Shown in pieces: positions 896 through 10,525 of a stretch of 10,979 bases of DNA (position 1 is the first letter of the stretch; every line of letters begins with the position of its first letter). A program made the translations under genes and the position numbers. A model generated the notes under the pieces. The model searched no databases and was not told the DNA's origin. It saw only the letters and a program-made list of their open reading frames with translations. Source of the DNA: Actinomycetes bacterium (lineage in GTDB: Bacteria > Actinomycetota > Acidimicrobiia > Acidimicrobiales > Palsa-688); assembly GCA_021827225.1 (NCBI GenBank), contig JAKAXG010000073.1:1-10979 (forward strand), in the 5' to 3' direction.

Positions 896-4235
<3,340 letters not shown>

Positions 4236-4243
<8 letters not shown>

Positions 4244-5321
4244 CCATCATCCTTTCGAATTCTGAAAAAAGGTAACTGGCGTCGTGGGGTCCGGGCCCCG
4301 CTTCGGGGTGGTACTGGACGCTGAAGGCCCGCAGGTCCGGGCGGCTGAGGCCCTCCACCACACCGTCGTTGAGGTTGATGTGGGTCACCTCGGCGTCGGC
4401 CAGGCTGGCCTGGTCGACGGCGTAGTTGTGGTTCTGGCTGGTGATCTCCACCGCCCCGGTGGCGATGCGGCGGACCGGGTGGTTCCCGCCGTGGTGGCCG
4501 AACGGCAGCTTGTAGGTGCGCCCGCCGAGAGCGACGGCCATCAGCTGGTGGCCCAGGCAGATCCCGAACACCGGCACCCGGCCCAGCAGTTCCCGGATGG
4601 TCTCCACCCCGTAGCCGACGGCGGCCGGGTCGCCGGGCCCGTTGGAGAGGAACACCCCGTCGGGCCGCCCGGCCAGGGCCTCGGCCGCCGGCGTGGAGGC
4701 CGGCACCACCTCCACGGTGGCCAGGTGCCCGAGGTGGCGCAGGATGGTCCGCTTGATGCCGAAGTCGTAGGCCACCACCTTCAGCGGGCCGTGGCCGTAG
4801 GTGTAGGGCTCGGCGGTGGTGACCTCCCGGACCAGGTCCCGACCGTCGGTTCCCGGCTCGTTCTGGGCCGCCTCCTTCAGCACCGCCTCGTCGAAGAGGT
4901 CGAGCGGCCCGAACGCCGCGGGCATGGCGCCGGCCTGGCGGATGTGGCGGGTCAGGCGGCGGGTGTCGATCCCGGTCAGGGCCGGCAGCCGGCTGTCGTC
5001 CAGGAACTGGTGGATGGTCCGCTCCGACCGCCAGCTGCTGGGCCGGGGCGGCAGGTCCCGGGCGATGAGACCCCGGCAGAACGGCCGGGCGCTCTCGCTG
5101 TCGTCCCCGGTCACGCCGTAGTTGCCGATGTGGGGGTAGGTGAAGCAGATGATCTGCCCGGCGTAGGAGGGGTCGGTGAGGACCTCCTGGTAGCCGGTCA
5201 GCGTGGTGTTGAACACGACCTCGCCGGTGGCCGGGCGGCCGGCCTGCGGGTCCCAGTAGCCGGCGGCCTCCCCCTCGAAGGTGGTGCCGTCGGCCAGCAC
5301 GAGCAGGGCTTCCCTGATCAA
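4236..5321 (-). CDS. carA: Carbamoyl-phosphate synthase small subunit (glutaminase)
   Basis: Hydrolyses glutamine and passes ammonia to CarB. The 361 residues match the family length. The N-terminal CPSase small-subunit domain covers about 1-135 ([24 protein letters not shown] in pieces at 33-56, and [12 protein letters not shown] at 117-128). The class I glutamine amidotransferase domain starts near 180, with LSNGPGDP at 225-232, the nucleophile elbow FGICLGHQ (Cys255) and the His338/Glu340 pair in QYHPEA, so the catalytic triad is intact. The start is TTG 5321, overlapping the pyrC stop as TTGA. I chose it because GGGGAGG lies 7 nt upstream and the next residues ([16 protein letters not shown]) match the family N-terminus. 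It overlaps carB by 8 bp, so the two subunits are probably translationally coupled in a near 1:1 ratio. Confidence 0.98.
4250..4255 (-). promoter_or_regulatory. Shine-Dalgarno for carB inside carA
   Basis: AAAGGA on the minus strand lies 6 nt before the GTG start of carB and within the last codons of carA. It supports GTG 4243 as the start and coupling of the two subunits. Confidence 0.65.
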
Positions 5322-6601
5322 CGCTGCGCCTCCCCGTCGATCACGACCGGCTCACCGGCGTAGATCGTGTGGCGCACCTTCCCGGTCAGCTTGCGGCCGG
5401 CGTAGGGGTTGTTCCGGCTGCGGCTGGCCGAGTCGGCCGGGTTGACCACCCAGGTGGCGCCCGGGTCGATCACGCACAGGTGGGCGGGCTTGCCGGCGGC
5501 GACGGGGCCGCCGAACTCGTCGGCGAGGCCGGCGATGGCGGCCGGCTGCCAGGACATCAGGGCGAGGATCCGCTCGATGGGAAGCTCCAGTTCGGTAAGG
5601 GCCAGCGACAGCGCCGTCTCCAGGCCCAGCATCCCGGGCGGGGCCTGGTCGAACGGCGCCTCCTTGGCCTCCTGGGTGTGGGGGGCGTGGTCGGTGGCGA
5701 TGGCGTCGGCCGACCCGTCGGCCAGGGCGGCCCTGACGGCGGCGACGTCGTCGGCGGTGCGCAGAGGCGGGTTCACCTTGAACACCGGGTCGTAGGACGC
5801 CACGCAGGCGTCGGTCAGGGTGAAGTGGTGGGGGGTCACCTCGGCGGTGACGCCCAGGCCCGAGGCCTTGGCGCCGCGGACCATGGCCAGCGAGCCGGCC
5901 GTGGACAGGTGCAGGAAGTGCATCCGGGCGCCGGTCAGGCGGGCCAGGGCCAGGTCCCGCATCACCATCAGCTCCTCGGCTTCGGCCGGCTGGCCGGCCA
6001 GGCCCAGGCGGCTGGACCACTCCCCCTCGTGCATGTGGCCGCCGCCGGCGAGGGAGGCGTCCTCGCAGTGCTCGGCCATGGTCACCCCGAGCGCCGAGGC
6101 GTACTCGAGCGCCCGGCGCATCAGGCGGGCGTCCTGGACGCCGGAGCCGTCGTCGGTGAAGATGCGCACGCCGAGGGCGGCCATCTCGGCCATGGGGGCG
6201 AGCTGGCGGCCCTCCCGGCCCACGGTGATGGCCCCGGCCGGGTGGACGGCGCAGCAGGCGGTCCGGCCCAGGTCCTGCACCTGGCGGACCACGGCCGCGC
6301 AGTCGATGGCCGGCTCGGTGTTGGGCATGGCGACCACCGCCGTGAAGCCGCCCATGGCGGCCGCCCGGGCTCCGGTCTCGACGGTCTCGGCCTCCTCCCG
6401 GCCCGGCTCCCGCAGATGGGTGTGGAGGTCGACCAGGCCGGGGGCGACCACGCACCCGGCGGCGTCGAGCACCACGGTCCCGGGCGGGGTGGAGCTGACC
6501 TTGGCGGTGACGGAGGTGATGATCCCGTCCTGGATGAGGACGTCGCCGTGGCGGGTCCCGGTGGCGTCGACGATGCGGCCGCCCCGGATCACGACGGACA
6601 T
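5318..6601 (-). CDS. pyrC: Dihydroorotase (type I)
   Basis: Cyclises N-carbamoyl-L-aspartate to dihydroorotate, the third step of the pathway. It is a 427-residue amidohydrolase of the long type I class, not the roughly 340-residue E. coli type. Metal and active-site motifs from ATG 6601: [11 protein letters not shown] (His60, His62), the substrate motif MPNTEP near 92-97, FTDDG near 148-152 (Asp as bridging or ligand residue, as in Aquifex-type enzymes), EHCED (His178), HLST (His231) and ATDHAPH with catalytic Asp304. The C-terminal [13 protein letters not shown] strand is typical. I chose ATG 6601, 4 nt after the pyrB stop, because [15 protein letters not shown] matches the family start. 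An in-frame TTG at 6619 inside pyrB would add six residues; neither start has a clear Shine-Dalgarno. The stop overlaps carA by 4 bp. In class I assemblies such enzymes bind PyrB; whether this one does is not visible. Confidence 0.97.
5329..5335 (-). promoter_or_regulatory. Shine-Dalgarno that fixes the TTG start of carA
   Basis: GGGGAGG on the minus strand ends 7 nt before TTG 5321 and lies within the last codons of pyrC. The good match and ideal spacing decide the start of carA in favour of the unusual TTG codon. Confidence 0.75.
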
Positions 6602-6605
6602 CCGA

Positions 6606-7612
<1,007 letters not shown>

Positions 7613-7616
<4 letters not shown>

Positions 7617-8182
7617 GGTGCGGTCACGTCCCCGATGACCACGCCCTCCTCGGTGGCGTCGACCATCTCGTCGCGGCGGGTGGGGAGGTTCTTGCCCACG
7701 TAGTCGGGCCGGATCGGCAACTCCCGGTGGCCGCGGTCCACCATCACCGCCAGCTGCACCGCCCGGGCCCGGCCGTAGTCGGCCAGGGCGTTGAGGGCGG
7801 CGCGGATGGTCCGGCCGGTGAAGAGCACGTCGTCCACCAGGATCACCGTGTGACCGGTGAGGTCGACGGGGATCTCGGTGGTCGCCTCCGGCAGCACCGG
7901 CCTCAGGCCGATGTCGTCGCGGTAGAACGCCACGTCCAGGGTCCCGACCACCACGTCCCCGCCGGTCACCTCGCCGATGATCCGGGCCAGCCGCTCGGCG
8001 ATCCACACCCCCCCGGTCTGCAGCCCGACGATGACCACCGACGAGGTGTCGGGGTTGCGCTCGATGATCTCGTGCGCCATCCGCCACGTCGCCCGGCGGA
8101 CGTCCTCGGCGTCCATGACCGTGGTGCGGGCAACAAAAACGCCCCCGTAGGGGGGCGCCAGGGCACGCTCACGTTTGGCCAA
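7613..8182 (-). CDS. pyrR: PyrR: pyr operon RNA-binding attenuator protein / uracil phosphoribosyltransferase-like
   Basis: Senses UMP/PRPP and binds a leader-RNA loop to repress the pyr operon; many members also make UMP from uracil. The 189 residues have a type I phosphoribosyltransferase fold. The PRPP motif [13 protein letters not shown] is at 113-125, with YRDD near 87-90 and [17 protein letters not shown] at 149-165. By alignment to B. subtilis PyrR, RNA-contact residues His22, Arg141 and Lys152 correspond to His37, Arg153 and Lys164, all kept, while Thr18 is Trp33. The PPi-loop TRG is TGG here (residues 56-58), as in Pseudomonas-type PyrR. I chose TTG 8182 because AGGAGGU lies 4 nt upstream and homologs need several residues before [12 protein letters not shown] 8116 has no Shine-Dalgarno and would cut strand 1. 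The first 17 codons after the start span a terminator-like hairpin. It is the first gene of the operon and overlaps pyrB by 4 bp. Confidence 0.95.
8131..8157 (-). terminator. Intrinsic terminator inside the 5' end of pyrR
   Basis: On the minus strand CGCCCCC (8157-8151), loop CUAC (8150-8147) and GGGGGCG (8146-8140) form a perfect 7-bp G/C stem, followed directly by UUUUUGUU (8139-8132). This is the classical Rho-independent layout, rare in such a GC-rich genome. It begins 25 nt after the first base of the TTG start of pyrR and lies in frame within the coding sequence, just downstream of a PyrR-binding loop. A role as an attenuator is inferred. It would be covered by the first translating ribosome and exposed when initiation is blocked. 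Confidence 0.7.
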
Positions 8183-8185
8183 CCT

Positions 8186-8192
8186 ACCTCCT
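8186..8192 (-). promoter_or_regulatory. Shine-Dalgarno of pyrR, overlapping the PyrR hairpin
   Basis: AGGAGGU is a full match to the 16S anti-Shine-Dalgarno, with 4 nt (UAGG) before TTG 8182. Its first two bases (8192-8191) are also the last two bases of the lower stem of the PyrR-binding hairpin. A folded, PyrR-bound leader should therefore hinder ribosome entry. Confidence 0.75.
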
Positions 8193-8233
8193 CGTTCCGT
8201 CCCGGCCTCACTGGACCGGCTTCACGGCTCGAG
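8191..8233 (-). promoter_or_regulatory. PyrR-binding RNA stem-loop in the pyr operon leader
   Basis: Bases 8216-8205 read GUCCAGUGAGGC, matching every fixed position of the known PyrR loop core RUCCNGNGAGGY. The flanking first and last positions of the longer consensus (A and U) are changed together to G and C, so pairing is kept. The upper stem is CCGG (8219-8216) with CCGG (8205-8202), then a bulged U and two C-G pairs closing loop AGUGA. A purine bulge GAAG (8223-8220) faces a single G, as in known sites. The lower stem is CCGU (8227-8224) with ACGG (8200-8197), and an outer CUCG (8233-8230) with CGAG (8194-8191). The 3' strand ends within the Shine-Dalgarno. In Mycobacterium smegmatis PyrR is known to repress translation in this way; the same here is inference. 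Confidence 0.85.
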
Positions 8234-8238
8234 GAACC

Positions 8239-8244
8239 ATCGTA
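8239..8244 (-). promoter_or_regulatory. Probable -10 element of the pyr operon promoter
   Basis: TACGAT on the minus strand fits the actinobacterial TANNNT pattern and is the best candidate between nusB and pyrR. Transcription starting about 7 nt downstream (near 8232) would begin at the foot of the PyrR hairpin, giving a leader of roughly 50 nt. The -35 region is poor: only CGGAC-like sequence lies at the right distance. Confidence 0.5.
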
Positions 8245-8856: not shown

Positions 8857-9420
8857 TCAGGCCCGGGTCAGGTACTCACCGGTGCGGGTGTCGACCTTCA
8901 CCCGGTCCCCGGTGTTGACGAACAGCGGCACCTGGATCTGCAGCCCGGTCTCGACCACCGCCGGCTTGCGCGCCCCCGACACCCGGTCCCCCTGCACGCC
9001 CGGCTCGGTCTCGGTGATGGTCAGCTCGACCGCGGCGGGCAGGTCCACGCCGACGATCTCACCGTCGAACATCTGGATGACCGCCGAGTCGCCCTCCTTG
9101 AGGTAGGAGGCCGCCGACCCGAGGGCGTCCTTGGGCGCCTGCAGCTGCTCGTAGTCGGTGGTGTCCATGAACACGTAGTGCTCGCCGTCGAGGTAGAGAA
9201 ACTGCATCTCCCGCTTGTCGATAAGCGCCTGGTCGAGCTTCTCGTCGGCCCGGTAGGTGCGCTCGATCACCGCGCCGGTCCGCACGTTCTTCAGCTTGGT
9301 GCGCACGAACGCCCCGCCCTTGCCGGGCTTGACGTGCTGGAACTCCACCACGGAGAAGAGCCCCTCGGGGAGGTTGAGCGACATCCCGTTCTTGAGGTCG
9401 TTGGTCGATACGGCAGGCAT
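8857..9420 (-). CDS. efp: Translation elongation factor P
   Basis: Enters the ribosomal E site and relieves stalling at polyproline stretches. It has 187 residues, the usual EF-P length, in three domains. The KOW-like domain I spans about 1-62 and carries the loop KPGKGG, with Lys34 at the tip that reaches the peptidyl-transferase centre. OB domain II spans about 67-127 ([17 protein letters not shown]). C-terminal domain III ends [22 protein letters not shown]. The start ATG 9420 is supported by GGGAG 7 nt upstream and by the family N-terminus (STNDLKNG). The frame remains open into the preceding gene, but that extension is not EF-P-like. It begins 4 nt after the peptidase stop, so the two are almost surely co-transcribed. 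No modification enzyme for Lys34 is nearby; actinobacterial EF-Ps are often unmodified. Confidence 0.98.
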
Positions 9421-9424
9421 TCGG

Positions 9425-10525
9425 TTACTCCCGAGTAGAGGGTCGATCCTTGGGGGTGAGGGTGAGGGGCCGGCAGCCATCGTCGGTCACCACCACGGTG
9501 TCCTCGATGCGGACCCCACCGACGCCGGGCAGGTAGACGCCCGGCTCGACGGTGACCACTTGGCCGGCCACGAGTGTATCGGTCGAGGTGGCCGACACCG
9601 AGGGGGCCTCGTGGATGTCGAGGCCGACCCCGTGGCCGGTGCCGTGCACGAACCGGTCCGCCCAGCCGGCCTCGGCGATCACCTCCCGGCAGGCGGCGTC
9701 CACCGAGGCGCAGGTGGCCCCGGCCCGCACCGCGGCCACCCCGGCGGCCTGCGATTCGAGGACGACCGAAACCGCCCGGCGCATCTGGAGATCGGAGATG
9801 CCCTCCACCCACACCGTGCGGGTCATGTCCGAGCAGTAGCCGTCGAGCAGGGCGCCGAAGTCGAGGACCACCGGCTCGCCCCGGCCGATGACCCGGGATC
9901 CGGGGCGGTGGTGGGGCTTGGCGCCGTTGGGCCCCGACGCCACGATGGTCTCGAATGATGGACCGCTGGCACCCAGTTCCCGCATGGTGAAGTCGAGCAG
10001 CCGACCGAACTCCGCTTCGGTGAGGCCGTCAGCCAGACGGGGCCGCACTTTGTCCAGAGCCTGGTCGGCTATGAGCGCGGCGGCCGCCAGCCGGTCCAGC
10101 TCGCCGGCGTCCTTCACGACCCGCAGCTGCTCCACCACGCCGACCGTGGGCAGCAGGGTCACGCCCGGGAACCATTCCGCGTCGAAGGCCCGCTGGCGGG
10201 CCCAGCTGATGTGGGCGGCCTCCAGGGCCAGGTGGTCGAGGCCGGCGGCGGAGACCAGGGCGGCGGCCCGCTCCCGCTGCCCGGCCGCCGGAGCCACCTC
10301 CACGGTCACCGCTGCCCCGGAAGCGGAGATCTGTTCCGCCGCCTGGCTCTCGTAGCGGCCGTCGGTGAGCAGCACCGCCCCGTCGGGCAGGACGAACAAC
10401 ATCCCCGCCGATCCGCTGAACCCGGTCAGGTACCGCACGTTGGTCAGGCTGGTCACGAGGAGGGCGTCCCCGGACAGCTGGCTGCGGAGTCGCGTCAAAC
10501 GGGAAGCTACGTCCATCTGCTGCAT
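9425..10525 (-). CDS. M24 family Xaa-Pro aminopeptidase / prolidase
   Basis: Cytosolic metallopeptidase that likely removes residues next to proline or splits Xaa-Pro dipeptides. It has 366 residues in two domains. The N-terminal creatinase/prolidase domain covers about 1-135 ([18 protein letters not shown] at 28-45, [11 protein letters not shown] at 52-62). The C-terminal pita-bread catalytic domain covers about 143-355. All five metal ligands are visible: Asp222 (VLDFGA), Asp233 (CSDMTRT), His298 ([13 protein letters not shown]), Glu327 (VTVEPGVY) and Glu341 (VRIEDTV); accessory His294 and His305 are kept. The start ATG 10525 has a weak GUAGG upstream; ATG 10516 is an alternative without one. 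The length and the efp neighbour match the short PepQ/YqhT-like peptidases found next to efp in many Gram-positives. The substrate cannot be told from sequence, so I give no symbol. Confidence 0.94.
9428..9432 (-). promoter_or_regulatory. Shine-Dalgarno fixing the efp start
   Basis: GGGAG on the minus strand is formed by the last codons of the upstream peptidase gene (CGG GAG TAA). It lies 7 nt before ATG 9420, which selects this ATG over the open upstream frame. Confidence 0.65.

Follow-up and report, generated by a model that had tools for sequence, protein, structure and literature searches.

A terminator-like hairpin in the first codons of pyrR from Acidimicrobiia: a candidate translation-coupled attenuator of the pyr operon

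Attenuation of the Bacillus subtilis pyr genes involves PyrR, a UCCNGNGAGG loop and a terminator positioned before those genes. For the pyr leader of Thermus strain ZO5, Van de Casteele et al. reportedly proposed in 1997 that PyrR attenuates transcription with no antiterminator involved, the terminator hairpin being kept from forming by a translating ribosome. In Mycobacterium smegmatis, PyrR is said to repress translation, the binding loop overlapping the Shine-Dalgarno sequence of pyrR, as Fields and Switzer described in 2007. The pyrBI signal of Escherichia coli dispenses with PyrR and depends on UTP-dependent pausing at a U-rich pause tract. In that organism a ribosome translating pyrL prevents intrinsic termination (PMC5021804). 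Here we describe a pyr locus that resembles each of these systems in part.

The window, by which we mean the whole stretch of 10,979 bases that was analysed, carries pyrR on the minus strand (7613..8182), with a TTG start at 8182-8180 and a product of 189 amino acids. NCBIfam model NF003549 scores 209.5 bits against a curated cut-off of 138 and PyrR chains in the PDB match with values down to 1e-51. An NTG codon occupies the same position as the TTG in all 80 of the relatives found by protein search. Four genes follow on the same strand: pyrB (6606..7616; NF002032, 389 bits, cut-off 263), pyrC (5318..6619), carA (4236..5321; TIGR01368, 433 bits, cut-off 307) and carB (896..4243; NF003671, 1552 bits, cut-off 599). 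For pyrC the subfamily-domain model TIGR00857 (pyrC_multi) gives 394.5 bits against a cut-off of 279, the top-scoring model NF006836 falling below its own (520 bits, cut-off 538). If pyrB is taken to begin at the ATG overlapping the stop codon of pyrR (ATGA), and the other three at their first possible start, each gene in the series from pyrR to carB overlaps the next, so transcription ending within pyrR would silence the whole set of five. The gene upstream of pyrR on the same strand is nusB (8840-8433). Judged from sequence only, the hexamer TACGAT (8239..8244, minus strand) is a putative -10 element, which would place the transcript start at about 8233-8230. Hexamers of the TAnnnT type are similarly placed in relatives (seen by eye and uncounted), and a sigma-70 scan listed no promoter in the window.

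A hairpin lies within codons 9-15 of pyrR (8139..8158, minus strand). C8157-C8151 pair with G8146-G8140 to give seven G-C pairs closed by the loop CUAC (8150-8147), and a G-U pair, 8158:8139, lengthens the stem to eight, with a 4-nt loop and a predicted energy of about -16.5 kcal/mol. The U-tract UUUUUGUU (8132..8139) falls inside V15 F16 V17 (GTT TTT GTT) and comprises a run of T from 8139 to 8135, a G, then TT. Hairpin and tract are read entirely in the pyrR frame as A P P Y G G V F V, codons 9-17. The original prediction, of a 7-bp G/C stem with a CUAC loop and a U-tract, read in frame and beginning 25 nt after T8182, is confirmed on the minus strand. A strict scan of both strands of the 10,979 bases (at least seven pairs, at least six of them G-C, and at least six T in eight) returned this hairpin as the only site, and a site of that type arose in just one of 300 dinucleotide shuffles of the window, the GC content of which is 72.5%. 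A looser scan was not above chance, with three sites, two of them the same hairpin in two registers, against 1.9 ± 1.5 expected. A GC stem leading directly into a U-tract is the form of an intrinsic terminator, and by the shuffles and by synonymous recoding (p=0.007, see below) it occurs here beyond chance. Pro-Pro is often encoded by the terminator stem (8155-8150 in the window), and efp, the gene for elongation factor P, is located two genes upstream of pyrR (8857-9480). EF-P assists the translation of Pro-Pro motifs (PMC5021804); the link with the nearby efp is possibly chance.

Is the hairpin maintained as RNA, or does it merely accompany a conserved peptide? We aligned 79 gap-free rows, 75 of them distinct, consisting of the window and 78 of the 80 protein-found loci (L050 and L072, with a deletion, were left out). 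Stem cells are paired in 90.3% of cases compared with 84.3% after partner shuffling, and changes on both sides of a pair occur in 26 cells against 6.4 in the shuffles, none of the 500 being as high. The covariation score of the stem is 0.179 and falls to at most 0.090 when the partner is slid by one to three columns. Of the five covariation measures, one does not exceed the shuffles (4 against 3.4; 256 of 500), namely the count of pairs in which a both-sided change occurs at all. As compensating changes, Arg-Pro/Gly-Arg replaces Pro-Pro/Gly-Gly in L026, L037 and L071, and L038 and L049 have CCCCACC/GGTGGGG. Rows with at least seven of the eight stem pairs number 63 of the 79; GTT stands at codon 15 in 49 of these 63 as opposed to 2 of the other 16, and TTT at codon 16 in 35 as opposed to 3, counts that come from related, non-independent sequences and so overstate the evidence somewhat. 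Elsewhere in the same pyrR genes GTT accounts for 103 of 1760 Val codons and TTT for 22 of 217 Phe codons.

Synonymous recoding of the first codons of 90 genes, using the codon usage of each gene smoothed by the pooled usage, gave a similar answer. With stem and U-tract scored together, 58 of the 90 genes exceed their recoded versions at p<0.05 and 35 do so at p<0.01 (window p=0.007). The hairpin without the U-tract performs less well, with only 31 of the 90 genes at p<0.05 and a value of p=0.13 for the window, so the U-tract is needed along with the stem for the signal. In L162, L170 and L175, where the peptide is largely different, a stem CGCCAG..CTGGCG with a T-rich tail starts 17 nt after the start codon, and L094 and L095 combine a related peptide start with a different stem, GCGGCACC/GGTGCCGC. 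The peptide itself is partly conserved. Across 40 sequences R4, E5, R6 and F16 do not vary, and a group with an HTRPRG peptide (L019, L025, L035, L039, L040 and L043) retains the extension without the hairpin. The proposed check, that the hairpin should persist while the peptide drifts, is supported by the compensating changes and by the stems of L162, L170 and L175, and the outcome named as refuting, a conserved peptide in place of the hairpin, is seen only in part, the peptide being kept in some relatives that have no hairpin. On balance the comparison suggests that hairpin and U-tract behave as selected RNA, beyond what the peptide alone would dictate. The Acidimicrobiia with the in-gene element are little-studied soil and freshwater bacteria.

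The codons concerned lie at the edge of the protein. The first 18 residues of the window PyrR fall outside the family profile, the NCBIfam match beginning at residue 19, and in the best solved PyrR chain, 1ufr, residue 5 aligns with window residue 20. The mycobacterial chains 1w30 and 5iao have about 14 residues ahead of the matched part, which the search left unaligned, and an N-terminal extension as such need not therefore be RNA-driven. In Acidimicrobiia the leader corresponds to the first 15 or so codons of pyrR, mostly predicted to be disordered. In an AlphaFold2 model, used for pLDDT and secondary structure only, residues 1-12 have pLDDT values below 50 and a strand begins at residue 15, so that much of the stem is encoded where no confident fold is predicted. 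If the relay proposed below is true, it would explain the extension as RNA rather than as protein.

Upstream of the start codon the minus strand can form a hairpin (8197..8227) that resembles a PyrR-binding loop. The outer stem comprises CCGU 8227-8224 and ACGG 8200-8197, the inner stem CCGG 8219-8216 and CCGG 8205-8202, and the 10-nt loop UCCAGUGAGG (8215-8206) is what we take to be a PyrR-binding loop, after the Bacillus binding-loop sequence. On that resemblance PyrR probably binds the 8197..8227 loop. The stem, with its conserved UCCNGNGAGG loop, is kept by covariation. In 50 sequences 98.3% of cells are paired, with 36 both-sided changes compared with 6.9 in shuffles, of which 0 of 500 were as high. 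Despite this strong covariation in the binding-loop region (8188-8239), Rfam release 15 gave no match in the window at E values up to 1; an actinobacterial family could be added for the loop. A second match to the loop occurs away from pyrR, ahead of a gene that looks like carA when its translation is read by eye, at 419-470 of L238 and 1958-2009 of L239 (minus strand). In L238 a short leader ORF, drawn by eye, ends at the carA start and contains a long hairpin without a U-tract.

The outer stem of the binding-loop-like hairpin continues into a lower stem that holds the Shine-Dalgarno sequence of pyrR, GAGGAGG (8187..8193). In the RNAfold prediction UCCUCG (8230..8235) pairs with CGAGGA (8194-8189) and so covers it. 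The mean unpaired probability predicted for the Shine-Dalgarno is 0.25 in the folded leader and rises to 0.58 once pairing is forbidden to the first 17 nt, which supply the 5' side of the stem. Across 121 nonredundant sequences, in a fixed register, 2.32 of 4 lower-stem pairs form, compared with 1.90 ± 0.06 when the sides are swapped between species, an excess that is modest but clear. A run of at least four lower-stem pairs is present in 68 of these sequences and a Shine-Dalgarno-like stretch lies beside the loop in 115. In a second type of leader, represented by 46 sequences with TTTAA, all 46 have three outer pairs, CUU with AGG of a Shine-Dalgarno-like AAGGGAG.

Could the leader pair with the terminator instead? 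The original prediction had found no strong antiterminator, its best candidate joining 8206-8198 to 8165-8157. This pairing exists as written, and the absence of a strong antiterminator is upheld. We compared leader pairing with the terminator 5' arm against shuffled leaders, with a threshold of z<-2. The best such pairing in the window, -11.0 kcal/mol, is weaker than the shuffled-leader mean (z +1.7 and +1.3 in two tests), and 73 nonredundant loci, almost all of them fused-type, have a mean z of +1.2, with no partner in 72 and L170 as the exception. The same test returned a partner in 7 of 42 leader or deep-lineage loci, near-copies included, with z values of -4.3 (L224), -3.6 (L213), -2.6 (L205), -2.5 (L216), -2.4 (L206), -2.3 (L198) and -2.3 (L221), and is thus able to detect such partners. 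An antiterminator is rejected for the lineage of the window (z +1.3 in the window and one of 73 below -2) and retained for some other lineages. For the 5'-arm bases, the mean probability of being paired to the leader before the 3' arm has been transcribed, 0.51, has no shuffled control and is not counted as evidence. The actinobacterial leaders L213, L221, L224, L205, L206 and L216 have a Bacillus-like antiterminator partner, and five of the six also have a short ORF running through the terminator; leaders that combine the two are a possible intermediate between the two modes.

The sampled loci are the best matches to the window, a redundant set and not a fair sample of the phylum. Automatic sorting of 232 redundant loci placed 118 in the class with a loop and a terminator in the pyrR frame and 32 in that with the terminator in a separate leader ORF. 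One has a leader ORF ending in the hairpin, 11 have no matching ORF, 57 have a loop and no detected terminator, and in 13 no loop was found, with errors such as L010, classed without an ORF though a fused start is visible, and L181 and L209, where visible loops were missed by the finder. Of 72 fused-type loci, 46 have a stem starting between +23 and +26; in 31 separate leaders the median is +17.

Separate leaders such as MHHAHASSAGGGVF followed by a stop (L231) and LSLHAYASPPWGGVF followed by a stop (L220) end in the U-tract with TGATG. Such leaders belong to other Actinomycetota and were beyond what the original prediction, drawn from the window alone, could reveal. Of 36 nonredundant separate-leader loci, 22 have a leader stop codon that shares bases with a possible pyrR start, in an ATGA, GTGA or TGATG arrangement; the third frame gives 1 of 36. 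These 36 derive from 41 loci in which leader ORFs were drawn (17 of the 41 starts by eye, the rest by rule) after five near-copies were dropped, leaving 13 starts placed by eye. Outside the 41 are L190, L203, L209, L214 and L216, with a terminator and no such ORF, and L181, with a loop missed by the finder. Openness of the ORF was rejected as proof of leader translation. Blind starts are open in 29 of 39 cases as against 31 and 30 in the other frames, and because openness is equal there we use the stop/start overlap as evidence instead. The simplest reading of the sequences is that a leader stop was lost, as in a change from GGVF followed by a stop to GGVFVAR, joining the leader to pyrR.

A tree of 115 nonredundant rows, from 153 usable, was built by a quick method; four badly cut rows from reverse-oriented loci (L087, L089, L123 and L127), the 5' ends of which are normal on inspection, were ignored, and the tree may lack other loci of that orientation. 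Twenty-three of the 25 separate-leader rows group together, away from the kin of the window, in a 27-row clade with support 97, and a clade of 13 (support 95) mixes two leader, two fused and nine loop-only forms. The labels are clustered, but the tree does not give the number of fusion or loss events. L160 and L165, within a clade of fused-type genes, have a separate 27-codon leader ORF containing the terminator. The record titles of L015, L017 and L010 (Bifidobacterium breve, Acidobacteria bacterium) look wrong, as each pyrR locus resembles those with Acidimicrobiia titles. There is roughly an even chance, in our estimation, that an ancestral PyrR-controlled leader ORF and its terminator became fused in frame to pyrR, and that the main role of the extension in Acidimicrobiia is to carry a terminator, gated by the ribosome, which turns translational repression by PyrR into shut-off of the whole operon.

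We consider it likely that the element is a PyrR-controlled, translation-coupled transcription attenuator, the leader ORF of which is now the beginning of pyrR. When pyrimidines are low the loop would not be held by PyrR, the Shine-Dalgarno would open and a ribosome would initiate at the TTG; in crossing codons 5-15 it would prevent the stem from forming, and RNA polymerase would continue through pyrR-pyrB-pyrC-carA-carB. When UMP or UTP is high, PyrR-UMP would keep the loop and lower stem closed over the Shine-Dalgarno. With the ribosome excluded the GC stem would fold in free RNA and transcription would stop at the U-tract, near 8135. To the elements described we thus add, as what we infer, PyrR binding to the loop, termination itself and the ribosome as the agent that prevents it. 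The original prediction of such a relay is best supported by comparison, namely the compensating changes, the Shine-Dalgarno in the lower stem of the loop and the lack of an antiterminator in the lineage, while its function is inferred and the peptide is partly conserved.

Timing is the weak step of the relay. The U-tract lies 43-50 nt past the start codon, so the polymerase must pause for the first ribosome and the interval is tight. No pause signal for the polymerase was identified; pausing at the large binding hairpin could buy time for the ribosome, although this is speculation. An initiating ribosome usually reaches about +15. A stem starting at +23 to +26 is beyond that reach and elongation by a few codons would be needed. 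Should the relay operate, a few codons turn a translation switch into a transcription switch, and the locus offers a compact test of whether ribosomes in GC-rich Actinomycetota catch up with the polymerase in time to forestall intrinsic termination. Antiterminator with leader ORF, leader ORF alone, fused leader and loop only form a natural series in one phylum, along which the evolution of attenuation may be traceable.

Other explanations should be weighed. Might the loop act by translational repression alone, as is said of mycobacteria, the hairpin being a weak or silent relic that hardly terminates? The 57 of 232 redundant loci with a loop and no detected terminator imply that the terminator is not essential to control, and some pyrR genes with a short start have the loop and lack the hairpin (e.g. 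L164, L166 and L176). A silent hairpin would not, however, be expected to keep compensating changes and the GTT and TTT codons, and the different stems in L094, L095, L162, L170 and L175 also argue against a relic; we think it unlikely. A Bacillus-type mechanism would make translation irrelevant, PyrR preventing an antiterminator built from the 3' half of the binding loop and the 5' arm of the terminator. That would suit the other leaders in which a partner was found (L224, L213, L205, L216, L206, L198 and L221), but pairing of this kind does not emerge in the window (z +1.3) or in the fused-type set (mean z +1.2, with L170 alone of 73 below -2), and the terminator is placed within the reading frame of a gene, which leaves the mechanism highly improbable here.

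The position of the hairpin in a translated stretch invites two further readings. In the first, UTP is sensed with no part played by PyrR, in the manner of E. coli pyrBI: the polymerase would slow when UTP is low, giving the ribosome time to draw level and mask the hairpin, an effect that may also add to that of PyrR. A translated terminator ahead of a pyrimidine operon is indeed the pyrBI layout (PMC5021804). A run of at least four T between loop and hairpin is nevertheless found in only 4 of 112 nonredundant loci, and not in the window, and the conserved binding loop would be left unexplained; we judge sensing of this kind very unlikely. Alternatively the hairpin might act on translation or RNA stability, the U-tract being a by-product of Val-Phe-Val. 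The peptide GGVF is common and the position of the hairpin is narrow (+23 to +26 in 46 of the 72 fused-type loci), as this would lead one to expect, but GTT and TTT are rare elsewhere in the same genes and are associated with the hairpin, so that such a role is scarcely credible. The preferred reading thus remains a terminator gated by PyrR through the ribosome.

How does this arrangement compare with the systems already described? With B. subtilis it shares the PyrR family, the loop and a terminator; it differs in that the lineage of the window has no antiterminator between loop and 5' arm and that the terminator is in a reading frame. E. coli pyrBI is alike in placing a terminator in a translated stretch of a pyrimidine operon, whereas the window has a binding loop and, between loop and stem, no U-rich pause tract. 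As in M. smegmatis the loop lies over the pyrR Shine-Dalgarno, the binding-loop stem including that sequence by predicted folding and by pairing counts, but the mycobacterial system is reportedly one of translation only and the window has a terminator after the start codon. With the arrangement proposed for Thermus the window shares an in-frame terminator behind a PyrR-like loop and the lack of an antiterminator. There the leader is said to be upstream of pyrR; in the window the terminator is inside pyrR, in codons outside the PyrR profile, the comparison being one of descriptions. As for the claim that translational and transcriptional modes are merged in one short element, the concept is not new given the Thermus model. 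Among the matches listed, in titles and the openings of abstracts and with most subscription papers outside that scope, we found no report of a terminator inside pyrR or of actinobacterial pyr leader ORFs. As a candidate attenuator the in-gene form is well supported by sequence comparison. Thus, while control by PyrR, a translating ribosome and a terminator has reportedly been proposed before, in Thermus, what looks new is the form in which the leader is fused into the gene, together with the spread of that form in Actinomycetota.
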